DNA from: Stenotrophomonas nitritireducens
GTDB lineage: Bacteria; Pseudomonadota; Gammaproteobacteria; Xanthomonadales; Xanthomonadaceae
Direction of reading: 5' to 3'
DNA: 64,000 bases
Assembly: GCF_001431425.1 (NCBI RefSeq)
Contig: NZ_LDJG01000002.1
Span: forward strand, 124,001 to 188,000
Shown here piece by piece: positions 16,994 through 28,777 of this stretch; within the stretch, counting starts at the first letter, position 1, and every line of letters starts with the position of its first letter. The notes below the pieces were generated by a model. The model was not told where the DNA came from, searched no databases, and saw nothing but the letters and a program-made list of their open reading frames with translations. Both the position numbers and the translations under genes were made by a program.

Positions 16994-17103
16994 GGCCATC
17001 GCGCCGCAGGCCGGGGCCAGGACCCCGGCGCCCCCTGCATACCGCCGCCGGGACAGGTCCTGTAAAGCACGCTTGACAGCGGTCTTCGGCTCGTACATCC
17101 TCC

Positions 17104-17121
17104 TGTCAAGCTTCCTTGACA
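17104..17121. promoter_or_regulatory. Inverted repeat operator candidate upstream of the XRE operon
   Basis: TGTCAAG (17104-17110) and CTTGACA (17115-17121) form a perfect 7-bp inverted repeat with a 4-base spacer. It ends on the Shine-Dalgarno AAGGA (17121-17125) of the first gene. A third copy of the half-site, CTTGACAG, lies upstream at 17072-17079 and doubles as a -35 (TTGACA, 17073-17078). The operon encodes an XRE-type repressor, so autoregulation here is a reasonable inference. Confidence 0.5.
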
Positions 17122-17135
17122 AGGACATGTGCGCA

Positions 17136-17306
17136 ATGAACAGCAAAGTGTGCGCCGGCACCGGCGCCGGCTTCATCGGCATCGGTACGGCCTTTCTTGC
17201 CCTCGGGATTTCCGGACAGAGCGCCTTCACCGGCGTCGGCCTGATCTTCTTCGGCCTGGGCATCGGTGGTCTGGCGCGTGCCTCGAAGCGGAGTACGGGG
17301 GCGTGA
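17136..17306 (+). CDS. Small two-helix membrane protein
   Basis: 56 residues with two glycine-rich hydrophobic stretches, GAGFIGIGTAFLALGISG (about 9-26) and AFTGVGLIFFGLGIGGLA (about 30-47), and a basic tail ASKRSTGA. I chose the ATG at 17136 because AAGGA at 17121-17125 is 10 bases upstream; an in-frame ATG at 17127 is too close to it. The stop overlaps the GTG of the next gene by 4 bases, so they are coupled. I do not recognise the family. Position suggests it belongs to a small membrane-protein operon controlled by the XRE regulator two genes on. Glycine-zipper-like spacing hints at helix packing, but nothing shows function. Confidence 0.7.
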   Translation: MNSKVCAGTGAGFIGIGTAFLALGISGQSAFTGVGLIFFGLGIGGLARASKRSTGA

Positions 17307-17884
17307 AAGCCGCGTCCCGCTGCGTCCTGGTGGTGCTGGCGGGCGTGGCCGGGCTTGCCGCCGTGCAGATCAGGCAGGCATGGCCGTCGCCGCTGGGGAA
17401 TACCGTCAGTGGCCTGCTCATCGCCGTCAGCGGCGTATTGATCGCTCTGGCGGTGGCCGATGGCATCCGCCCGAGGGCCGAGGACTGCGCGCCGCTGGCG
17501 GTGCGCCAGCGCTACATGCGCCGGTTCTTCGCCGCGATGGGCGGTTATCTGCTCGCGGTGTTCGCTTCGGTATGGATGCTGCGCTACGTGGAGTCATTGC
17601 CGTTGCGCGTGCTGCTGGCGCTGTTGCCGGTGCCGCCGGTGGCGCTGGTGATCGGTGCGATGGTGCGCTACGTCCGTGAAGTGGACGAAATGCAGCAGCG
17701 CATCGAACTGCAGGCGGTCAGCATCGCCACCGCGCTGGTGTCGCTGTTGTACCTGACCGGTGGTTTCCTGCAATCGGCCAAGGTGGTCGACCTGCGTGCC
17801 AGCACGGTGATGCTGATGGTGTTCCCGCTGGTGTGCGCGGTGTACGGGCTGGCAAAGTTCGTGGTCGCGCGGCGTTATCGATGA
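17303..17884 (+). CDS. Four-helix membrane protein of an XRE-linked operon
   Basis: 193-residue integral membrane protein starting at GTG 17303 (GTGA overlap with the small upstream gene). Its stop overlaps the XRE gene start as ATGA. Hydrophobic segments lie at about residues 5-20, 32-52, 72-92 and 100-118, with further ones at about 140-158 and 165-185, so four to six helices. A charged stretch YVREVDEMQQRIELQAVS sits between them, the arrangement seen in small membrane proteins paired with YozG-like regulators in many bacteria. No catalytic motif is visible. Tight spacing on both sides implies a joint role with the regulator, perhaps sensing at the membrane; this is inference. Confidence 0.82.
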   Translation: MKAASRCVLVVLAGVAGLAAVQIRQAWPSPLGNTVSGLLIAVSGVLIALAVADGIRPRAEDCAPLAVRQRYMRRFFAAMGGYLLAVFASVWMLRYVESLPLRVLLALLPVPPVALVIGAMVRYVREVDEMQQRIELQAVSIATALVSLLYLTGGFLQSAKVVDLRASTVMLMVFPLVCAVYGLAKFVVARRYR

Positions 17885-18078
17885 ACAACCGCCTGCGCGA
17901 ACTGCGCGAAACCAATGGCTGGTCGCAAGGAGAGCTGGCCGAACGGCTTGAGGTCTCCCGGCAGACCGTCAACGCGCTGGAGACCGGCAAGTACGATCCC
18001 AGCCTGCCGTTGGCGTTCCGCATCGCCCGCCTGTTCGATGCCAGGATCGAGGACATCTTCTTTCCTGATGTCACATAA
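17881..18078 (+). CDS. XRE-family transcriptional regulator (YozG-like)
   Basis: 65-residue, single-domain helix-turn-helix protein. It reads MNNRLRELRETNGWSQGELA, then ERLEVSRQTVNALETGKYDP, then SLPLAFRIARLFDARIEDIF: the compact Xre/Cro domain common as a stand-alone regulator next to a membrane protein. The recognition helix is VSRQTVNALE. The ATG at 17881 overlaps the upstream membrane-protein stop (ATGA). It probably represses its own operon through the inverted repeat at 17104-17121 and may also affect the hydrolase-exporter genes that begin 68 bases downstream. No sensor domain is present, so any signal must come through a partner. Confidence 0.93.
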   Translation: MNNRLRELRETNGWSQGELAERLEVSRQTVNALETGKYDPSLPLAFRIARLFDARIEDIFFPDVT

Positions 18079-18146
18079 CGCTGCCAGCCGCGTCATGGGC
18101 TGACAGATCCAGATATCCGTTCCATCAACCACAAGGGGCCGTTCCG

Positions 18147-19676
18147 ATGATGTCCCGCAAGACCCGTACCCTCCTGGCGGTAGCCGCGCTCATCGCCGTG
18201 CTCGGCTACCGCGCGTTCAAGCCCGCACCCGACGAGGCCAAGGCCGACAAGGCATCGCCTCCCGTCGCCGACGCGCCGGCCAGGCCGTTGATGCTGGGCC
18301 GGCTGGCGTTCCAGCCCTGCAGCCTGGATTCGCCGGCCAGCCGCGACAGCCTGGAAGCGCAGTGCGCGACCTTCGAGGTTCCCGAGGACCGCGCCAATCC
18401 GCAGGGCCGCAGGATCGCGCTGAACATCGCGCTGCTGGTACCGGACAAGCCGGAAGACGTGCAGCCCGATCCGGTGTTCTTCCTCGCCGGCGGCCCCGGC
18501 CAGTCCGCGGTGGACAGCTACCCGATGGTCGATGCCGCATTCGCCGACGTGCGCAAGCACCGCAACGTGATCCTGGTCGACCAGCGCGGTACCGGCCGAT
18601 CCAACCTGCTGTCCTGCGAGGCGCCGGAGGAAGACGACGCCAGCGTCGAGGCGATGCAGGCCAGCGCCGCCGCCTGCGCGGCGACCCTGTCGAAGAAGGC
18701 CGACCTGCGCCACTACACCACCACCGATGCGGTGGCCGATCTGGAAGCCGTGCGCGAGGCCATCGGCGCGGCGCAGGTCAACCTGGTCGGCGTCAGCTAC
18801 GGCACCCGCGTGGCGCAGCAGTACGCCATGCGCCACCCGTCCAGCACGCGCAGCATCGTGCTCGATTCGGTGGTGCCCAACACCCTGCGGCTGGGCAGCA
18901 TCTTCGCCCGCAACCTGGACGACGCGCTGGCGCTGCAGTTCGCCCAATGCACCGGCAACGCCGCCTGCAAGGCGGCGCTGGGCGACCCGCGCGCCGAACT
19001 GGACGCGCTGCTGGCCACGCTGCGCGCCAACCCGGTGACGGTGCGCTACCGCGACGCCAGCACCGGCGAGGAACGCGAGGACGTGCTGCGCGCCGAAACC
19101 GTCGCCGGCCTGGTGCGCATGTACGCCTACATGCCGCAGGCCGCGGCGCTGCTGCCCAAGCTGATCCACGAGGCGCGCAACGGCCGCTACGGCGACCTGA
19201 TGGCGCTGGCGCGGATGATGCAGGGCGACATGAAGGACGCCATGGCCATGGGCATGCAGCTGTCGGTGATCTGCAGCGAAGACGAGGAAGGCATGGTCGC
19301 GCGCAGCGGGGACGAAGGCACCGTGCTCGGCAACCGCATGGCCGAGGGGCTGGCGGCGATGTGCAGGGCATGGCCGAAGGGCCAGGTGCCGGCCGACTTC
19401 CACACGGCGTTGTCCGGCGCGGTGCCGGCGCTGGTGCTGGAAGGCGAGTTCGACCCGGTCACGCCGCCGCGCTATGGCGAGGACGTGGTCAAGGGCCTGT
19501 CCAAGGGCCGCCTGTTCGTGCTGCGCGGCCAGGGCCACGCGGTGATCGGCGCCGGCTGCATGCCCAAGCTGTTCGCCCAGTTCGTCGACAAGGCCGATGC
19601 CGCCGCGCTCGACGGCGCCTGCCTGGAAAAACTGAACTACGTGCCGTTCACCAGCTTCAATGGCTGGGAACCGTGA
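18147..19676 (+). CDS. Secreted alpha/beta hydrolase, peptidase S33 / TAP-like
   Basis: 509 residues with an N-terminal hydrophobic anchor or signal (RTLLAVAALIAVLGYRAF). The fold is alpha/beta hydrolase: oxyanion region FFLAGGPGQSAVDSYP, VDQRGTGRSN, nucleophile elbow GVSYGTRVAQQYA, acid in LEGEFDPVTPP and histidine in RGQGHAVIG. These are the motifs of tripeptidyl-aminopeptidase/proline-iminopeptidase-like hydrolases with a TAP-like C-terminal domain. The ATG at 18147 follows AAGGGG; a second ATG comes right after. The gene lies 68 bases after the XRE gene and 31 before the ABC ATPase, so it likely shares a transcript with the exporter. A peptide substrate in the periplasm is plausible, but the true substrate is unknown. 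Confidence 0.88.
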   Translation: MMSRKTRTLLAVAALIAVLGYRAFKPAPDEAKADKASPPVADAPARPLMLGRLAFQPCSLDSPASRDSLEAQCATFEVPEDRANPQGRRIALNIALLVPDKPEDVQPDPVFFLAGGPGQSAVDSYPMVDAAFADVRKHRNVILVDQRGTGRSNLLSCEAPEEDDASVEAMQASAAACAATLSKKADLRHYTTTDAVADLEAVREAIGAAQVNLVGVSYGTRVAQQYAMRHPSSTRSIVLDSVVPNTLRLGSIFARNLDDALALQFAQCTGNAACKAALGDPRAELDALLATLRANPVTVRYRDASTGEEREDVLRAETVAGLVRMYAYMPQAAALLPKLIHEARNGRYGDLMALARMMQGDMKDAMAMGMQLSVICSEDEEGMVARSGDEGTVLGNRMAEGLAAMCRAWPKGQVPADFHTALSGAVPALVLEGEFDPVTPPRYGEDVVKGLSKGRLFVLRGQGHAVIGAGCMPKLFAQFVDKADAAALDGACLEKLNYVPFTSFNGWEP

Positions 19677-19707
19677 CCGTCCACGCATCACTCAAGGATC
19701 CGCTTCC

Positions 19708-20459
<752 letters not shown>

Positions 20460-20463
<4 letters not shown>

Positions 20464-21653
20464 ACAAGACCGGATTCATTGGCAGCATGTTCACGGTGAT
20501 GCGCAAGGAGCTGCGCGACTTCGCCCGCGACCGCCGCACCTTCTTCCTGACCCTGTTCATCGCGCCGCTGCTGTACCCGCTGCTGTTCCTGGGCATCGAC
20601 AAGCTCAGCAACCTGCGCGTGGAGAACCAGCTGGAGAAGGACATGACCCTGCCGGTGGTGGGCATGGAGCGCGCGCCCAACCTGGTGGCGTTCCTGGCCA
20701 GCCACGGCATCACCGCCAGCGAGGCGCCGGACGATTACGAGGCCCGCATCCGCGCCCAGCGCGAGGACGTGGCGCTGGTGATCGCCCCCGACTTCGCCGA
20801 CGACTGGCACGCCGGCAAGCCGGCCAAGGTCGAGGTCGTGGCCGACACCACGCGCCGCACCAGCGATGTGCAGGTGGCGCGCGTGCGCAAGGTGCTGATG
20901 GCCTACGGCCAGTCGGTGGGCGCGTTGCGGCTGCTGGCGCGCGGCGTCAATCCGATGGTGGCCGCGCCGGTGAGCGTGGGCACGCGCGACCTGGCCACCG
21001 CCGAGGCCAAGCGCGGCATCTTCCTGTCCGTCATCCTGCCGATGCTGCTGATGATGTTCGCCTTCATCGGCGGCTCGCACCTGGTCATGGACACCACCGC
21101 CGGCGAGCGCGAGCGGCAGTCGCTGGAGCCGCTGCTGGCCACCCCGGCTTCGCGTGGCGCCCTGGTCAGCGGCAAGATGCTGGCCTCGGCGGCGGTCGGA
21201 CTGACGGCGATCCTGCTGATCCTGCTGTCGTTCAAGTTCAGCGCCAGCATCGGCCGCGGCATGGCCGGCTCGCTGGATGTCAGCTTCATGGCGATGGGCA
21301 AGCTGCTGCTGGTGCTGCTGCCGCTGGTGCTGATCGGCACCGCGCTGCTGACCTGCCTGGCGGCGGGCGCCCGCAGCATGAAGGAGGCGCAGAGCCATAT
21401 CGTCTGGCTGATGATGCTGGCGATGATGCCCGGCTACGCGCTGATGGCCTATCCGCTGAAGGACACCCAGCTGTGGCAGTACGCGGTGCCGTTCTTGTCG
21501 CAGAACCAGATGCTGGTGAAGGTGACCCGCGGCGAGATGCCGGGCGCCGAGCAGTGGGGCGTCTACCTGGCGGCGTCGCTGTTGCTTGCGGTGCTGTTGT
21601 GGGCGGTGGCGGTGTGGCGCTACCGGCAGGAGAAGCTGGCGATTTCGGGCTGA
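20460..21653 (+). CDS. natB: ABC exporter permease (NatB-like, ABC-2 type)
   Basis: 397-residue permease. The first membrane helix (about 26-42, FFLTLFIAPLLYPLLFLGI) is followed by an extracytoplasmic domain to about residue 180. Five or more helices then cluster in the C-terminal half, including GIFLSVILPMLLMMFAFIGG, ASAAVGLTAILLILLSF and LLLVLLPLVLIGTALLTCL. TTAGERERQSLEPLLATPAS is the coupling-helix motif conserved in NatB and related ABC-2 permeases. ATG 20460 overlaps the ATPase stop (ATGA). A strong terminator begins 22 bases after the stop, which ends the unit that may start at 17136. Confidence 0.92.
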
Positions 21654-21675
21654 CGGCCAGCGGTACAAGTTATGC

Positions 21676-21707
21676 AGACAGCCCGGTTCCGCCGGGCTGT
21701 CTTTTTT
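21676..21707 (+). terminator. Rho-independent terminator after natB
   Basis: A perfect 10-bp stem GACAGCCCGG / CCGGGCTGTC (21677-21686 with 21692-21701), a 5-base loop and a run of six T (21702-21707). It lies just past the natB stop and is a textbook intrinsic terminator. Confidence 0.92.
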
Positions 21708-21747
21708 CCGATGCGTGGATTGCCGCAGGACGCGGCGTCCGCCCGCC

Positions 21748-22923
21748 TCAACGCATCGCCACTGCGTCCACTTCAACCAGCACTTCGGGCCCGAACAGCG
21801 ACTGGACACCGATCAGCGCGCTGGCTGGCGCATGCCCTCGCAGCCAGCGGTCGCGGCTGTTGCGTATCGTCGCCAGCTCCGCCTCCCGGTAGTCGCGGAC
21901 ATAGAAGGTGAGCCTGACCAGGCGGTCGATGCCGCTGCCGGCCTGGCGAAGCGTGGCTTCCAGATTCTGGAACACCTGTTCGAGCTGCTCCTGCAGGGTG
22001 CCGGCGATGCTTCCATCGGAGGACAGCGGGACATGTCCGCTGAGCAGGATCAGGCCACTGTCCAGAACCATCGCCCCGGAAACACCGGGGATCTCCTGCC
22101 CCGGCGCGGTTACCGCGGTGAAGGCTGCCACCGGTCCGCCCGCTGCGGGCACCGCGGGGGACTGCGCCGGAGGCGGTTCCTGCTGCCGCAGGGCGCCGAT
22201 GAAATCCTGGACCGGCATCGCCCAGCCGAAGTGGTGGACGACATGCTCCAGTACGTGCCGTTGCTGCTGCGCGGTGAAAGCGGCGGTGGCGTCGCTCAAT
22301 ACGATGGGTTCGTAGCCGAGGTCATGCGCCGCGCGCAGCGTGGATTCGATGCAGACATGGGTGGCGTATCCGGCCAGATAGAGCCGGGTGATGCCCTGGC
22401 CGCGCAGATAGCTGTCCAGATTGGACGCGGCGAACGCGCTGGCACCGGCGCGGCCGCTGACGACGAACTCACCGGCTCGCGGAGCGAACGCGGGATGGAA
22501 CCGCCAGCCGCTGTCTTCGGTCTTCCAGGTATTGAAGCTGGGAATGGCGCCGCGCAGGCCAAAGCGCGCCTGGCCCAGTTCGCGGTAATCCGATGACATC
22601 TGCAGCGTGGCGTGGATCACCGGCATGTCCGCATCGCGCGCTGCCGCCAGCGCGCGTTGCGCAGCCTGCTGCGAATGCTGGAAGGCCTCCTGGTCTTTGA
22701 TCAGGCCGCGCAACTTGCCATCATCGACCAGCCATTCATTGACGAACTCGATCATCAGCAGCGCCGGGCGCCCCTGGTGTGGTGCGGAAAGAAGGGGCAC
22801 CTGCGGCGATGCGGCGGAGGATTGGCCGGCTTTCGGCGGCAGCGGCGTCGAATGGCCGTTGGCGCTGGCCGCGGCGGACAGCAGCAGGAATTTCGGAAAC
22901 AGCGAACGTGTGAGATCGAACAA
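21748..22923 (-). CDS. Isochorismatase-like / RidA-like fusion protein (RutB-RutC-like), possibly exported
   Basis: 391 residues in two domains. Residues about 45-240 are an isochorismatase-type cysteine hydrolase: ALLMIEFVNEWL, VVSGRAGASAFAASNLDSYL, and YLAGYATHVCIESTLRAAHD with the nucleophilic Cys. The Asp and Lys of the usual D-K-C triad read Glu (IEF) and Arg (GRAG). Residues about 275-391 are a RidA/YjgF domain (GLILLSGHVPLSSDGSIAG, LTFYVRDY, PASALIGVQSL), lacking the Arg of archetypal RidA deaminases. In pyrimidine breakdown RutB and RutC are separate proteins of these two families, so this looks like a one-chain counterpart. The start is TTG 22923 after GAGGGG; the first 25 residues resemble a signal peptide. 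It is divergent from a LysR gene. Activity and substrate are unproven. Confidence 0.85.
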   Translation of the reverse strand: MFDLTRSLFPKFLLLSAAASANGHSTPLPPKAGQSSAASPQVPLLSAPHQGRPALLMIEFVNEWLVDDGKLRGLIKDQEAFQHSQQAAQRALAAARDADMPVIHATLQMSSDYRELGQARFGLRGAIPSFNTWKTEDSGWRFHPAFAPRAGEFVVSGRAGASAFAASNLDSYLRGQGITRLYLAGYATHVCIESTLRAAHDLGYEPIVLSDATAAFTAQQQRHVLEHVVHHFGWAMPVQDFIGALRQQEPPPAQSPAVPAAGGPVAAFTAVTAPGQEIPGVSGAMVLDSGLILLSGHVPLSSDGSIAGTLQEQLEQVFQNLEATLRQAGSGIDRLVRLTFYVRDYREAELATIRNSRDRWLRGHAPASALIGVQSLFGPEVLVEVDAVAMR

Positions 22924-22954
22924 GACAGGCCCCTCGCCAAATGGTGTGGGGGCG

Positions 22955-22983
22955 ACTATAGGAAGGAGCGATATGGGTGATAA
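22955..22983 (-). promoter_or_regulatory. Candidate promoter of the fusion gene
   Basis: On the minus strand TTATCA (22983-22978) and TATAGT (22960-22955) are separated by 17 bases, matching 4 of 6 and 5 of 6 consensus positions. The transcript would start near 22948, 25 bases before the TTG start. The LysR gene starts at 23028 on the other strand, so its protein probably acts in this 104-base interval. Confidence 0.5.
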
Positions 22984-23027
22984 GCCCGTGGAATTCGCAG
23001 TAACTGTGAACGCAGGGAACGCTTGAG

Positions 23028-23921
23028 ATGGATCCTTTCAGCGACATCAGCACCTTCGTGCGTGCGGCGGAAACGGGCAACTTCACCCGTGCGGCGCGCG
23101 TGCTGCGGCTCACGCCATCTGCGGTAAGCAAGTCGGTTGCGCGATTGGAGGCGGAGCTGGGAGTGAAACTGTTCCACCGTTCACCACGCCAGATCACCCT
23201 CACCGGAGACGGCGAATTCTTCTACGCGGCCTGCCGGCAGAGCATGAGTGGCGTGGAGGCCGCGCGCAGTCTGCTTTCAGGCGATGCGCAGCCCTGGTGT
23301 GGAAAGCTGCGGCTGGCGGTACCGGTGAGCTTCGGCCAGTACGTGGTCGCGCCGGCACTCGGCGCATGGTTGGCGGCGCATCCCGGCCTGGAAGTGGAGC
23401 TGGTATTGACCGACCGGCACGTGGATATGACTGCCGAGCGCTTCGACCTGGCGGTGATGCTGGGCGAAGTGCCCGATTCGAGGTTGGTGGCACGCGCATT
23501 GCCGCCGCACCGGTTCGTGACGGTCGCAGCGCCGTCGTATCTGCGGCAGCAGGGTGTGCCGCGGCGGCCAGAAGACCTTTCCGGGCATCGCTGCCTGCGC
23601 TACGTCATGGCCGGGAGCGGCAGGTTCCGTGCATGGACCTACACGCGGCAGCGGCAACATTACCGCCATGTCCCGCTTGGACCGCTTGCCAGCGATCATG
23701 CCGCGGTGCTGCTGGCCTTGGCCGAAGCGGGGCAGGGCATCCTGCAGGCGCCGCGCTACGTGGTGAGCGCCGGGCTGGCGGCCGGGCGCCTGGTGCCGGT
23801 TCTGGACGACCATGCCTGCACCGGGGCGCCATTGGCGGTGGTATATGGCCACGCACGCCAGGCATCGGCGCGTACCCGGTTGATGGTGGAGTTCCTGTTG
23901 TCCCTGGGCGACCAGCTGTGA
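23028..23921 (+). CDS. LysR-family transcriptional regulator
   Basis: 297 residues, the normal LysR length. The N-terminal winged helix (1-60) reads DPFSDISTFVRAAETGNFTR, AARVLRLTPSAVSKSVARLE, AELGVKLFHRSPRQITLTGD. The periplasmic-binding-like effector domain runs from about 90 to the end (KLRLAVPVSFGQYVVAPALG, ERFDLAVMLGEVPDSRLVAR, APSYLRQQGVPRRPEDLSGH). It matches the DsdC/AaeR-like subgroup found beside many catabolic genes. It is transcribed away from the isochorismatase-RidA fusion and is the obvious candidate for its control, with the inducer likely to be that enzyme's substrate. A bidirectional terminator follows about 80 bases after the stop. Confidence 0.93.
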   Translation: MDPFSDISTFVRAAETGNFTRAARVLRLTPSAVSKSVARLEAELGVKLFHRSPRQITLTGDGEFFYAACRQSMSGVEAARSLLSGDAQPWCGKLRLAVPVSFGQYVVAPALGAWLAAHPGLEVELVLTDRHVDMTAERFDLAVMLGEVPDSRLVARALPPHRFVTVAAPSYLRQQGVPRRPEDLSGHRCLRYVMAGSGRFRAWTYTRQRQHYRHVPLGPLASDHAAVLLALAEAGQGILQAPRYVVSAGLAAGRLVPVLDDHACTGAPLAVVYGHARQASARTRLMVEFLLSLGDQL

Positions 23922-24003
23922 GCCCGGGCGTGATTGCCGGTTCCGGCCGTGTTCGCAGCGCCGGGCGGTGAAGCCCGGCGCTGCGGCCCCGGATCGGGCC
24001 CAC

Positions 24004-24038
24004 AAAAAAAGGCCCGGAGCGATCCGGGCCTTCTTTCT
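24004..24038. terminator. Bidirectional intrinsic terminator
   Basis: Stem GGCCCGGA (24011-24018) / TCCGGGCC (24023-24030) has a tetraloop, seven A before it (24004-24010) and TTCTTTCT after it. It can end both the LysR transcript (plus) and the TonB-like lipoprotein transcript (minus, stop at 24053). Confidence 0.88.
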
Positions 24039-24052
24039 GCGGTGGCGCAGGG

Positions 24053-25048
24053 TTACTGGTTCGGCTGGAAGGCCAGCGTACGGCGGGTGGTGGTCGGGCT
24101 GGAGATCGGCTCGAAGCGCCAGCGCTTGACCGCGTTCAACGCCTCGCGGTCGAACACGCGCGGCGGATTGGCGCGCAGCACGCGGGCGTCGGTGACCGAA
24201 CCATCGGTGCCGATGGTGAGTTCCACCAGCACCTCGCCGGAGGTGCCCGAGCGCAGCGCATCGGCCGGGTAGCGCGGGGCGGGCGTGCTCACCGCGCGCA
24301 GGGTAGGTGCGGCCGCGGCGGGCTTCGGTGCGGCGGCGACCTGCTGCGCGGCGGCGCGGGCATCGGCCTCACGCTTGGTGGCGGCCTGGCGCTCGGCTTC
24401 CAGGCGTTCGCTTTCCTGGCGTGCGGCCTCCTGGCGCGTGGCCAGCTGCTGCGCGGCGGTGGCCTCGGCGGCCTGCTGCTGCGCCAGGCGCTGCTGCTCG
24501 ACCAGCTGCTTGGCGCGGTTCTCGGCGTCCTTCTTGACCTTGTCGGTCTCCTCCTGCGTGCGCTTGACCGCCACTTCCATGCCGCGGGTGATGCCCTGCT
24601 TGAGCCGCGGCAGCGCCGGTGCCGTCGGGTCCACCTTCTCGATCAGCGCGATCAGGCGCTGGGCTTCGGGGAAGTCCTCGCGCGCCAGGCTCTGTTCGGC
24701 GGCGATCAGGGTATAGGGCTGCAGGTCGGTCAGCGCGCTCTTGACCGCCGCGTCGTCGGGCAGCTTGTCGCGCAGGGCCAGATAAAACTCCATGGCATTG
24801 TCGCCGGCCGGCGCATACATGCGGTTCTCGCGCAGGGCGGTGCTGGCCGAATCGCGCAGCTGATCGGTGCCCATCGACTGTACCTTGGCCGAAACCGCGG
24901 GCTCGGCCGGAGCGGCGGCGGGGCTGGCGGGCGTGCCGGAGGCGGAGGCCGGAGCGGAATCGTCCTTGCCCGAACAGGCCGCCAGGGCGACGGCCAGCAG
25001 GGCGGGCGCCAGCAGGCGCGCTTTGCCGTGGATCGTGACGTACGACAT
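24053..25048 (-). CDS. TonB-family C-terminal domain lipoprotein
   Basis: 331 residues. ATG 25048 follows AAGGGGAAG; the codon before it is TTG and could extend the frame by one. The signal ends in a lipobox LALAAC (Cys near 25), followed by an Ala/Pro/Ser linker. A helical domain (about 55-150) carries the MGTDQLRDSASTALRENRMY and NAMEFYLALRDKLPDDAAVK segments. Residues about 160-245 are an Ala/Gln/Glu/Arg coiled coil. The C-terminal 75 residues are a TonB domain: PAPRYPADALRSGTSGEVLV, then FDREALNAVKRWRFEP. True TonB is anchored by a membrane helix, so a lipid-anchored form is an energy-transducer variant or an envelope protein using the fold only. It is common in Xanthomonadaceae. No ExbBD genes are adjacent. 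Confidence 0.88.
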   Translation of the reverse strand: MSYVTIHGKARLLAPALLAVALAACSGKDDSAPASASGTPASPAAAPAEPAVSAKVQSMGTDQLRDSASTALRENRMYAPAGDNAMEFYLALRDKLPDDAAVKSALTDLQPYTLIAAEQSLAREDFPEAQRLIALIEKVDPTAPALPRLKQGITRGMEVAVKRTQEETDKVKKDAENRAKQLVEQQRLAQQQAAEATAAQQLATRQEAARQESERLEAERQAATKREADARAAAQQVAAAPKPAAAAPTLRAVSTPAPRYPADALRSGTSGEVLVELTIGTDGSVTDARVLRANPPRVFDREALNAVKRWRFEPISSPTTTRRTLAFQPNQ

Positions 25049-25252
25049 CAATCTTCCCCTTGAATCGACGAACGCGAATGGTTGCTCGCCCGGGCCGTCA
25101 TGGATGCGCGGCGTTTCCCGACGCCGGCCGGACCCGGGGCGAAGGGTGAATCTAGCATTGCCGCGCGTGGTTGCACGAGGCGGCGGTGGCGGGATCCATG
25201 AAAGCCGATGGCCGTCACGGGGTGACGACCATCGACCGGATCGGTGCCGGGG

Positions 25253-25834
25253 TCAGTGCCCGTTCTGCCTGGGATGGCCGTTGGACATCAGTTTGTCGGT
25301 CCAGGCGATGCCGATCGCCGACAGGATGAACACGCAGTGGATGATGGTCTGCCACATCACGCCGGCGGAGGTGAACTTGGTGCAGGGCACGCCCACGGCC
25401 GCTTCCGATCCGCACAGCGGCAAGCCGAGCTGGCCGGCCTCGATGAAGGTCTTGAGCAGGTGGATCGAGGAGATGCCGATGATCGCCATCGCCAGCTTCA
25501 CCTTCAGCACCGAGGCGTTGACGTGGCTGAGCCACTCCGGCTGGTCCGGGTGCCCCTGCAGGCCCAGGCGCGAGACGAAGGTCTCGTAGCCGCCGACGAT
25601 GACCATCACCAGCAGGTTGGAGATCATCACCACGTCGATCAGGCCGAGCACGATCAGCATGATCTGCTGCTCGGTCCAGCTGGCCGCGTGGGTGATCAGG
25701 TGCCACAGCTCGTGGCCGAACAGATAGACGTAGACGCCCTGGGCGATGATCAGGCCCAGGTAGAGCGGCAGCTGCAGCCAGCGCGAGGCGAAGATCAGGG
25801 CCGGGAGGGGGCTCAGCGGTTTGTGTTCGGACAT
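25253..25834 (-). CDS. UPF0114 (YqhA) family membrane protein
   Basis: 193 residues with about four membrane helices: [60 protein letters not shown] and [20 protein letters not shown]. The motif [14 protein letters not shown] at the start and [17 protein letters not shown] after helix 2 define the YqhA/UPF0114 family, of unknown molecular function. E. coli YqhA is shorter (164) because it lacks the insertion near residue 145 ([20 protein letters not shown]), which here contains two cysteines. The gene stands alone between the TonB-like lipoprotein gene (204-base gap) and the divergent GST gene. Confidence 0.9.
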
Positions 25835-25943
25835 GGCAGGAATGCTGCGTTGCGGAAAGGCGGCAGGTTAACGGTCGTCCGGTAGGCTGCCAAGCGCTAC
25901 CGTATCGATCCCCGGCGACGGTTCCCCCCACGGAGACGCATTC

Positions 25944-26633
25944 ATGATCGACCTCCATTACTGGCCCACCCCCAACGGCCACAAGATCACCCTGTTCCTG
26001 GAAGAAGCCGGGCTGGAGTACCGCCTGGTGCCGGTCAACATCGGCAAGGGCGACCAGTTCCAGCCCGATTTCCTGGCCATCTCGCCGAACAACAAGATGC
26101 CGGCCATCGTCGACCACGCCCCGGCCGATGGCGGCGCGCCGCTGAGCGTGTTCGAGTCCGGCGCGATCCTGCTGTACCTGGCCGAGAAGACCGGCCGCTT
26201 CCTGCCTGCCGACCTGCGCGGCCGCGCCGCCGCGCTGGAATGGCTGTTCTGGCAGATGGGCGGGCTGGGGCCGATGAGCGGGCAGATGGGCCACTTCAAC
26301 GTCTACGCGCCCGAGCGCATTCCCTACGCCATCGAACGCTACGACAGCGAGGTGCGGCGCCTGCACCGGGTGATGGACAAGCGCCTGTCGCAATCGCCGT
26401 ACCTGGCCGGCGACGAATACGGCATCGCCGACATGGCCAGCTACCCGTGGATCGGCGCCTACAGCAAGCTGCCGGCCGACTTCGACGCCTTCCCGCACCT
26501 GCACCGCTGGCACCAGGCCATCGCCGCGCGCCCGGCCACGCAGCGCGCCTACGCGCTGGGCCCGACGGTCAACCCGGATGCAGGCAAGCCGTTGAGCGAG
26601 GACGAGCGCAGGCAGTTGTTCGGCAGGCGTTGA
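25944..26633 (+). CDS. yfcG: Nu-class glutathione S-transferase, disulfide-bond oxidoreductase (YfcG-like)
   Basis: 229 residues. The N-terminal thioredoxin fold begins MIDLHYWPTPNGHKITLFLE, matching E. coli YfcG (MIDLYFAPTPNGHKITLFLE). It continues with SPNNKMPAIVDHAPADGG and FESGAILLYLAEKTG, the cis-Pro and glutathione-binding segments. The helical domain has ALEWLFWQMGGLGPMSGQMG and YLAGDEYGIADMASYPW. YfcG proteins bind two glutathiones, have little transferase activity and reduce disulfides or peroxides; T9 and N11 in TPNGHK are their functional residues and are present. The ATG at 25944 follows a GGAG-containing leader. A GC-rich hairpin at 26708-26732 follows but lacks a T run. Confidence 0.93.
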   Translation: MIDLHYWPTPNGHKITLFLEEAGLEYRLVPVNIGKGDQFQPDFLAISPNNKMPAIVDHAPADGGAPLSVFESGAILLYLAEKTGRFLPADLRGRAAALEWLFWQMGGLGPMSGQMGHFNVYAPERIPYAIERYDSEVRRLHRVMDKRLSQSPYLAGDEYGIADMASYPWIGAYSKLPADFDAFPHLHRWHQAIAARPATQRAYALGPTVNPDAGKPLSEDERRQLFGRR

Positions 26634-27013
26634 GTTGCTTGGCGCTCCCCATGCGCTCCTGTTTCATTCGAGCTGATACAAGTCGGATCGCATAGCAGGT
26701 TCGCATTCCCGGCTCCTTTCCACGGAGCCGGGGGCGTTCGACCAGGCCGGATGCCAGGAATGGATGCGCGCTCCGCAGGAATGCATCCGCGCCTGGCGGA
26801 TGGGTGCAGGCAATCTGCCTTGGTCGATACGGCGGATGTGTTCGATTGATTATGTCGGCGGAAAAGGTACGGGTAATGCAGCCCGGGCATCCGATACCGG
26901 GGAACGGCGATGATGTTTTCGCGTTTCGCAGCGTATATCCGGGGGGGTGCTTGTTTTGCGCTGGATAATGGGGGAGGGTATGGCGGCATGAACCGTCACG
27001 CAAGGAAGTGATC
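26634..27013. other. Gap before the RHS locus, no gene seen
   Basis: 380 bases with no convincing gene. A 9-bp inverted repeat CCCGGCTCC / GGAGCCGGG (26708-26716 with 26724-26732) may end the GST transcript. Beyond it the base composition drops visibly below that of the flanking genes, marking the left edge of the foreign-looking RHS segment. The Shine-Dalgarno AAGGAAGTG for the first RHS gene lies at 27002-27010. Confidence 0.5.
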
Positions 27014-28777
27014 ATGTCGGTACGCAGCGCAGCCTCATATTGGTTGTTTTTTCTGCTTTTTTCCATGTGAGGACTGGCTTTTGCCCAGAATCCGGGCGAT
27101 ATAAAACCCGATGAATCCGAAGGGGCACTCGCGGCTCTTGCCAGTGATGCGATGCAGCCTTACCAGGAATACGACAGGAAGATAAGGGCGGCGGAAATCG
27201 TGCCCGCGTTGACTTCGGATCTGTTCGGAGAGGCGGTGAACCTTTACGACCAGACCGTTGTTTTCCACCACGTGGATGTGGATGTTCCAGGCTCGAACGC
27301 ATTGCCGGTGCGCCTGTCCCGTAGCCTGGCCATCAGGCCGGTTCCCTACCTGGGGACTCCTCCCGAAACATATGGCGGGGCGGGGGACTGGGACGTGGAT
27401 GTCCCGCGGATATCAGGCGTGTTCGACTCGATGTACGGGTGGAACATCGGCTACGGCGGCAGCGCGCCACGCTGCTCCAGCAGTTTTTTCCCGCGTACCG
27501 ATCCGCCGCATGACATGTCCGAGATATGGTCGGGCTATGTCTTGAGCATTCCGGGGCAAGGCAGCCGCAGTCTGGTGGGCCTGCCGCCGAGCCAGTACAG
27601 GAAGCCCGATTCCAAGACGCGACTGTGGACGACGACGGCCTTTGATGCGGTGTCCTGCACGCCGATGATCTCCGGATACCCAGGCGAGGGCTTTGTCGTG
27701 GAAACTATGGCAGGGCTGGTTTACACCTTCAACGTCGGAACCCAGCGTTCTGCAGGCAAGATGGGCAGGGATAATGGTTCTCCTGCTTCACGGCTGCGCT
27801 TGGAGGTGTCGCTGCTGGCGAGCAGGGTCGAAGACCGTTTCGGGAATTGGGTGGAATATTCCTACAACGCTGCGGGCCACCCTGTCAGCATCAGCAGCAG
27901 TGACGGCCGCCTCATCTCGCTGACATACAGCAGCGGCCGCCTTTCCAGCGCAAGCGCACATGGCAGGAACTGGAGCTATACCTACAATGGATCGAACCTC
28001 CAGCGCGTAAACCTTCCGGACCAGTCGTTCTGGGAGTTCACCCATCTGGCGGACAGGCGCATCCGCTATGAACGCTGGACGGAAGATCCCGGGGTGGGGT
28101 GCGGAAACATCGCGCCATTGGCGCTGAAGAACTACACGCTGCAGTTGCGCCATCCGTCTGGTGCACTGGGTGAATTCGAGTTCGCCCATCAACGGCTGTA
28201 TCGCGCGGGCATTCCATGGACCTATTGCGAGGCCGAGTCGGTTGGTGGTACGTCGGTCGTGCATAGGCTGGCCTTGCCGAATTACTTCGACGTGCTTGGT
28301 CTCTGGACAAAGAGGATCACGGGTCCGGGCATCCCGTCCGGGCAGGTCTGGGGCTATTCGGACCTCGGCGACTATCATGGCCTATGGTCGGGAATCGTTC
28401 CGCCCTGTACGACATGCCCGCAGTCCAAGCGAGTCCGGATCGTGCAGCCGGACGGAAGCCAGGTGGAAGAGGAATATGGCATCGTCTATTCGCACAACGA
28501 GGGGCGCCTGCTGGGTAGGTTCCACAGTTCCAGTGTCGGAACCGCGCTCCGTTCCGAGTACCTCACCTACGTATCCAGTGCGGAAGCCGCCTCGGCTCCG
28601 TTTCCGGACAGATACGGATCGCTATGGGGAGGCAACGACGAATCGTCGGTATTGGTAAGGCCGCTGCGGCGACGGGAAGTGATCGAAAGCGGCGTGAAGT
28701 TCAGCTGGGAGGCGACAGCTTTCGATGTTTTCGCCCGGCCGGTGAATGTCACGCAATCCAGCACTCCCTCCCCCTGA
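27014..28777 (+). pseudogene. RHS/YD-repeat N-terminal protein with a stop codon in the signal peptide
   Basis: ATG 27014, after a good Shine-Dalgarno, opens a signal peptide: MSVRSAASYWLFFLLFSM, then TGA at 27068-27070, then in the same frame GLAFAQNPGDIKPDESEGAL and on without a break to 28777. Reading through the stop gives 587 codons with a normal AFA-Q signal cleavage site. From the first internal ATG, 27152, 541 residues remain without a signal. The protein has RHS-like N-terminal strands and a few YD-type repeats (WVEYSYNAAGHPVSISSSDG, WSYTYNGSNLQRVNLPD) and several Cys pairs (GIVPPCTTCPQS). Base composition is less GC-rich than its neighbours. It is probably a recently inactivated gene, or a one-base sequence error. 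The next RHS gene begins 12 bases after the stop. Confidence 0.75.

Follow-up and report, generated by a model that had tools for sequence, protein, structure and literature searches.

We analyzed a 64,000-nucleotide stretch of the Stenotrophomonas nitritireducens genome (contig NZ_LDJG01000002.1, positions 124,001–188,000), hereafter the window, which encodes on its reverse strand a 391-residue protein that joins an isochorismatase-like hydrolase (ICH) domain to a Rid (YjgF/YER057c/UK114) domain in a single chain (window positions 21748–22923). The ICH-Rid fusion is a genuine family, conserved beyond chance, and together with a divergent LysR-type regulator gene it forms a horizontally acquired, mobile two-gene unit that passes between unrelated bacteria. 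In our best reading, the ICH half would hydrolyze an external amide- or lactam-type compound inducibly; that the Rid half simply serves assembly is a rival explanation to be taken seriously. The domains, key residues, conservation, LysR linkage, and insertion described below are computational observations.

The coding sequence is supported by the open reading frame list, Pfam, and homologs. Both domains match their Pfam models well above the cut-offs and in the order proposed in the initial annotation: PF00857 covers residues 54–239 (22207–22764, reverse strand; 136 bits versus a cut-off of 27, E 1.9e-39) and PF01042 (Ribonuc_L-PSP/Rid) covers residues 288–390 (21754–22062, reverse strand; 69.8 bits versus 27.3, E 2.6e-19), the latter assignment being also backed by structure matches and sequence profiles. 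The TTG start codon is supported by homology, with an ATG at the aligned place in four homologous loci (L006, L007, L008, and L009), and is preceded at 6 nt by a likely ribosome-binding site, GAGGGG (22930–22935, reverse strand); the relatives have similar purine runs. We used the second of two structure models, built from 92 sequences, as the first, built from 28, was poor, with a predicted local distance difference test score (pLDDT) of 68. In the second model, both folds are modelled well, with pLDDT values per ten-residue block of 88–99 for residues 51–250 and 79–97 for residues 281–391, and the pocket around Cys191 falls within the confidently modelled region. Since the structure matches of this model cover the ICH half only (the VIA-align list spans residues 40–247, and the 50 best Foldseek matches are ICH structures), we assessed the Rid half via sequence profiles and the Foldseek list of the first model.

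At least 37 proteins of the protein collection carry both domains in the same order, with 58–96% identity to the window fusion and the top two at 96% and 73%. Both protein searches scored only the roughly 8000 candidates sharing most words, which makes 37 a minimum; searching with a profile of the aligned fusions returned many ICH-only relatives and no extra fusion. The named carriers include Burkholderia sp. LMG 13014, Achromobacter pestifer, Pseudomonas chlororaphis, Delftia lacustris, Serratia, and Chromobacterium alkanivorans. Within the genus, the fusion gene is present in the window's own genome and in none of the 90 others (E 1e-20), and the same genome holds the one full fusion among 369 sampled genomes of the class. 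In a sample of 378 genomes of family f199 (E 1e-40), we found one full fusion, two that have a damaged Rid half or none, and two ICH-only genes, and in 324 genomes of family f193 no fusion and one ICH-only gene. The recurrence of the fusion disposes of the idea that it is absent from relatives. A degraded remnant, or one with its true start further downstream, is likewise ruled out by the 37 homologs, the invariant, intact active-site residues, and the aligned ATG starts. Among the open-license papers listed in our literature searches, no title or abstract deals with an ICH-Rid fusion, with a clade of isochorismatase-like proteins of the Glu-Arg-Cys type, or with the export of an ICH protein.

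The active site of the ICH half carries Glu59 (22747–22749), Arg158 (22450–22452), and Cys191 (22351–22353; all reverse strand) at the places of the canonical Asp-Lys-Cys triad, as the initial annotation had read from the sequence, and the fusion thus departs from the canonical isochorismatase-like amide hydrolases. Cys191, the expected nucleophile, is the only cysteine of the protein. Opposite Glu59 and Arg158, the hydrolases BiuH and TrtA from the PDB have Asp and Lys, as do relatives labelled, from their motifs, as RutB-like and BiuH-like. All three residues are invariant in the 92 rows of the clade alignment A3 (26 fusions, the window's included, and 66 ICH-only proteins) and are therefore a clade signature rather than a sign of decay. 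Five weaker matches outside the clade, which were left out of A3 (P0067–P0071), do not carry Glu and Arg at those places. A Glu combined with a Lys occurs in further relatives (L050, L052, and L053) and in the solved structure 3kl2, a putative isochorismatase from Streptomyces avermitilis, which unlike the fusion has a Lys at the Arg158 place and no Rid domain; the RutB and BiuH types combine Asp and Lys. The invariance of Glu-Arg-Cys in so broad a clade raises the question of whether Arg is able to replace the catalytic Lys. One further Glu-Arg-Cys ICH protein, P0066 (407 residues), has an additional signal-like N-terminal region.

The Rid half lacks the Arg on which deamination by RidA and RutC depends, in agreement with the initial annotation. 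Ser368 (21820–21822, reverse strand) stands opposite the Arg of YabJ, of the two other Rid proteins of this genome, and of three Rid proteins encoded next to RutB-like genes, and a Ser occupies this place in 28 of 28 aligned fusions. The Tyr17 place, taken from the alignment that includes YabJ, is Ile or Val in all 28, and what we presume to be the Glu120 place is Asp in 26. The fusion scores 49.1 bits against TIGR00004, the model of RidA-type detoxifying deaminases (cut-off 106.25), with Ser at the Arg105 place. Replacement of the Arg by Ala nearly abolishes RidA activity, Tyr17 and Glu120 being of little importance, and Ser is natural at this place in about 10% of RidA proteins, according to parts of PMC4433059; likewise, passages of PMC8113886 report undetectable deaminase activity for RutC R104A and, so far, none for the Rid subfamilies without this Arg (Rid4–7). 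Because such Arg mutants are inactive or nearly so, the Rid half is unlikely to deaminate enamines in the manner of RidA and RutC. Among the fusions, invariance extends to many further residues of this half. A stand-alone family of Rid proteins shares the Ser (27 of 30 rows of alignment A4), and the best solved match to its profile is YyfB (5v4f, 101.7 bits), with Asn at the aligned place. Like the fusion, Ser-variant RidA proteins and YyfB have the Rid fold without the deaminase Arg, but no fused hydrolase. The joining of such a Rid to a hydrolase offers a handle on Arg-less Rid proteins, as the substrate of the hydrolase could lead to the effect of the Rid domain on its product.

The initial annotation had also drawn a parallel to the Rut pathway, in which a ureidoacrylate-like compound would be hydrolyzed and the resulting enamine then deaminated. 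RutB and RutC belong to the same two superfamilies as the halves of the fusion, but they are separate proteins; RutB itself is Asp-Lys-Cys (as described in part of PMC8849098) and RutC has the essential Arg104 (likewise PMC8113886), where the fusion has Glu-Arg-Cys and Ser. RutA had no match in this genome, the fusion scores 69.2 bits against the RutB model TIGR03614 (cut-off 377.95), and the RutC model TIGR03610 gave no match to it at E 0.001, with Ser at the Arg104 place. Besides the fusion, the genome has one other PF00857 gene, for a nicotinamidase (L002, which passes NF008623 at 180.1 bits), and two other PF01042 genes. The missing RutA, the model scores, and the missing deaminase Arg, together with the inactivity of RutC R104A and the probable export of the fusion, do not bear out this parallel, and a Rut-type pair is very improbable. 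The fusion also falls far below the cut-offs for the biuret hydrolase BiuH (NF050097, 75.6 bits versus 370) and the nicotinamidase PncA (NF008623, 26.2 bits versus 174).

With RidA/RutC deamination unlikely, the Rid domain could be a trimerization or stability module, leaving the ICH half as the sole catalytic unit, and we give this explanation serious weight, somewhat short of an even chance. It accommodates the loss of the Arg and the substitutions at the Tyr17 and presumed Glu120 places, the loss or breakage of the Rid half in several relatives, the signal-like starts of 16 ICH-only relatives, and the scarcity of Rid genes near ICH-only genes. The invariance of Ser368 and many further Rid residues speaks against it, as does the existence of a free-standing Ser-Rid family, in which 16 of the first 25 proteins have a signal-like start themselves. 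Such a family points to an independent activity.

Several observations weigh against our best reading. The Rid half is missing or broken, and the ICH half kept, in P0038, P0039, P0040/L104, and L009/L103 (the last two probably one strain), so that the two halves need not carry out a compulsory sequence of two steps, and some lineages do without the Rid domain. Pairing of ICH and Rid as neighboring genes is rare: only 1 of 12 ICH-only loci (L010, L015/L019, L016/L018, L038, L039, L040, L042, L043, L046, L047, L105, and L107, read with 1.5–8 kb of flank per side where present) has a Rid gene nearby. This one locus belongs to genome G247 (L016/L018), where adjacent separate ICH and Rid genes lie behind a GntR-type gene and carry Glu-Arg-Cys and Ser as in the fusion; a thirteenth locus, L106, has no Rid gene nearby and an incomplete ICH frame. 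Conversely, no gene for an ICH protein lies within 1.5 kb of the Ser-Rid genes in L072 and L073. A search of 63 ICH-only and 31 Rid entries from the two protein searches gave three more putative pairs, as entries on equally long contigs (0.12 expected in a simple jitter test), one of them under the name Loktanella agnita. In two of these pairs only the Rid protein starts with a signal-like stretch; in the third, both proteins lack it. The rarity of neighboring ICH and Rid genes makes the two-step reading less likely and a structural Rid domain likelier. Within the ICH half, all 26 aligned fusions have Val two positions downstream of Glu59, whereas Gln is usual there in the ICH-only proteins (54 of 66). 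A motif-I Gln stabilizes the substrate in γ-lactamase-active relatives, as stated in part of PMC8849098, and we infer that it is this same Gln. The change from Lys to Arg at the place of the catalytic base could, moreover, impair amide hydrolysis. Finally, the LysR match is spread over two frames in L008 and ends at residue 163 in L009/L103.

Some of these loci show further features. In the pairs P0103/P0113 and P0108/P0111, where only the Rid protein has the signal-like start, the partners may lie in different compartments. At L072 (1411–1896 and 1893–2630), the signal-bearing Ser-Rid gene lies beside a MerR-like gene and overlaps an opposite-strand glutathione-S-transferase-like gene, both labelled by eye. 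L038 (3563–5714), L040 (4073–5585), and L107 (520–2097), from rhizobial plasmids plus another genome, hold clusters of a short-chain dehydrogenase/reductase gene, with or without a glutathione S-transferase gene, and a cysteine hydrolase gene, adjoining AraC- or LysR-type genes; this hydrolase belongs to a neighboring ICH branch, likewise with Glu, Arg, and Cys.

The fusion protein is probably exported. Residues 1–21 (22861–22923, reverse strand) resemble a signal peptide in their hydrophobicity and AxA motif, and they are followed by a low-confidence stretch that is probably disordered (pLDDT below 50 over residues 1–39). A simple home-made rule, rather than a trained predictor, underlies all counts of signal-like starts given here. 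It picks out a hydrophobic stretch near the start, with an A-x-A-type motif behind it, in 32 of the 37 fusions, in line with the signal-like N-terminus already noted for the window protein, and 30 of these have a positive n-region. The five exceptions have a longer called start (P0002) or later ones (P0006, P0007, P0034, and P0037), and for P0007 the DNA of L007 holds an in-frame signal-like stretch upstream of the called start. The start is signal-like in 16 of the 66 ICH-only relatives. An exported Rid protein has a precedent in the periplasmic amino-acid-oxidase/RidA complex of Chlamydomonas, cited in a passage of PMC5053998.

The fusion gene is most likely under the control of the divergent LysR-type regulator (23028–23921, forward strand; 297 residues), whose family Pfam confirmed. 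The LysR gene adjoins an intact fusion gene in all five loci with flanks (the window, L006, L007, L008, and L102), the other four copies being 72–75% identical to that of the window; it also lies beside the incomplete fusions of L009/L103 and L104 and, at 51% identity, beside the ICH-only gene of L010. Within the 104-bp spacer between the two genes, the promoter scan and the locus alignment reveal a σ70-like fusion promoter, TTATCA-N17-TATAGT (22955–22983, reverse strand), conserved as TTATC(A/G)-N17-TATAGT in five of five aligned loci (the window, L006, L007, L008, and L009). It is the sole promoter-like match in the 2.6 kb scanned (21600–24200; 0.3 expected). Upstream of the promoter lies a candidate LysR-type box, TTC-N11-GAA (T-N11-A type; 22994–23010, reverse strand), which is kept in four of the five loci and variant in L007, a count given without a chance estimate.

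From this anatomy, the LysR-type protein would sense a small molecule and activate the divergent gene via the T-N11-A box and the promoter, and the N-terminal signal would take the product to the periplasm. In that compartment, the Glu59/Arg158 pair would activate Cys191 for attack on an amide-type carbonyl in an external amide, ureide, or lactam, and hydrolysis would proceed via a thioester, as the fold and the isochorismatase-like hydrolases suggest. The Ser-bearing Rid domain would either help an unstable first product to break down faster or assemble the enzyme into trimers. The benefit would be detoxification or, less likely because no transporter or pathway gene is seen travelling with the LysR-fusion pair, nitrogen scavenging. 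A LysR-inducible, exported Cys hydrolase of the amide or lactam type that detoxifies or scavenges an external small molecule with an Arg-less Rid partner has, in our judgment, an even chance of being right. The bolder form, in which the Glu-Arg-Cys branch and a non-deaminase Rid make up an exported, inducible, mobile two-step enzyme of the periplasm that disarms an amide or lactam compound and resolves its unstable product by a novel Rid reaction, is tentative and rather unlikely. The simple LysR-plus-enzyme unit makes both the role of the Rid domain and the exchange of Arg for Lys testable.

The enzyme could instead serve nutrition, as a periplasmic amidase that releases ammonia or a carboxylate from amides or ureides outside the cell. 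The characterized structures nearest to the ICH half include RutB and the biuret and triuret hydrolases BiuH and TrtA, all of which free nitrogen. BiuH and TrtA share its fold and hydrolyze amide-type bonds with a Cys nucleophile; they differ in having the Asp-Lys-Cys triad, in lying in catabolic operons, and in having no Rid domain. With equivalog scores far under the cut-offs (75.6 of 370 bits for BiuH and 69.2 of 378 for RutB) and no co-travelling transporter or catabolic gene seen by eye in the window or L006–L008, nutrient scavenging is doubtful. The target could also be a signal or defense compound from a host or a competing microbe, not a toxin that the cell itself encounters. The named carrier genera are often associated with soil, plants, or insects, which favors this explanation, but the signal-like start suggests the periplasm rather than secretion, and we regard it as improbable. 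An isochorismatase and a cysteine hydrolase are among the pan-genome-wide association signals of insect-associated Serratia marcescens in part of PMC10656689, where they are not shown to be of the ICH-Rid family.

The arrangement resembles that of AmpR and AmpC, in which a LysR-type regulator is divergent from one exported hydrolase; that enzyme is unrelated to the fusion, and the likeness is of arrangement only. By its description, the streptothricin hydrolase SttH is comparable as an isochorismatase-like enzyme that opens the streptolidine lactam of an antibiotic, and the passage describing it mentions neither a Rid domain nor a LysR cassette (PMC11702664). The relevant passages of the resistance papers, this one included, draw no link to the ICH-Rid family.

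In the window, the fusion and LysR genes occupy a foreign insertion of approximately 21655–24000. The genes on its two sides encode an ABC-2 permease and a TonB-domain protein, and their matches lie 2.35 kb apart. Both flanking genes are on one contig in 16 relatives of the genus: the gap is 6–360 bp in six (G004, G021, G029, G054, G071, and G085, of which the last four were examined closer) and about 0.86–2.2 kb, with other content between, in ten. In G048, the nearest relative by the permease gene, the two lie on separate contigs. The GC content at third codon positions is 0.80 and 0.79 in the inserted genes, versus 0.90–0.97 in four neighboring genes.

Other origins were considered and rejected. 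Forty plasmid records match, all below 60% identity and none covering more than 80% of the query; among the 30 matches listed, the alignments end at residue 244. No tRNA gene lies in window positions 17000–28000 or on L008, L010, L104, or L018; tRNA-Ser occurs on L006, L009, and L102, and a tRNA-Arg call within the fusion gene of L007 looks false. With tRNA-Ser at only some loci, a tRNA is not a general integration target. An RNA element was set aside after positions 20000–26000 gave no Rfam match at gathering scores.

The spacer between the permease and TonB-domain genes, filled differently in ten relatives, may be a recurrent insertion site. The flanking TonB C-terminal domain protein itself (24053–25051, reverse strand) starts like a lipoprotein and contains a long stretch rich in Ala, Glu, and Gln.
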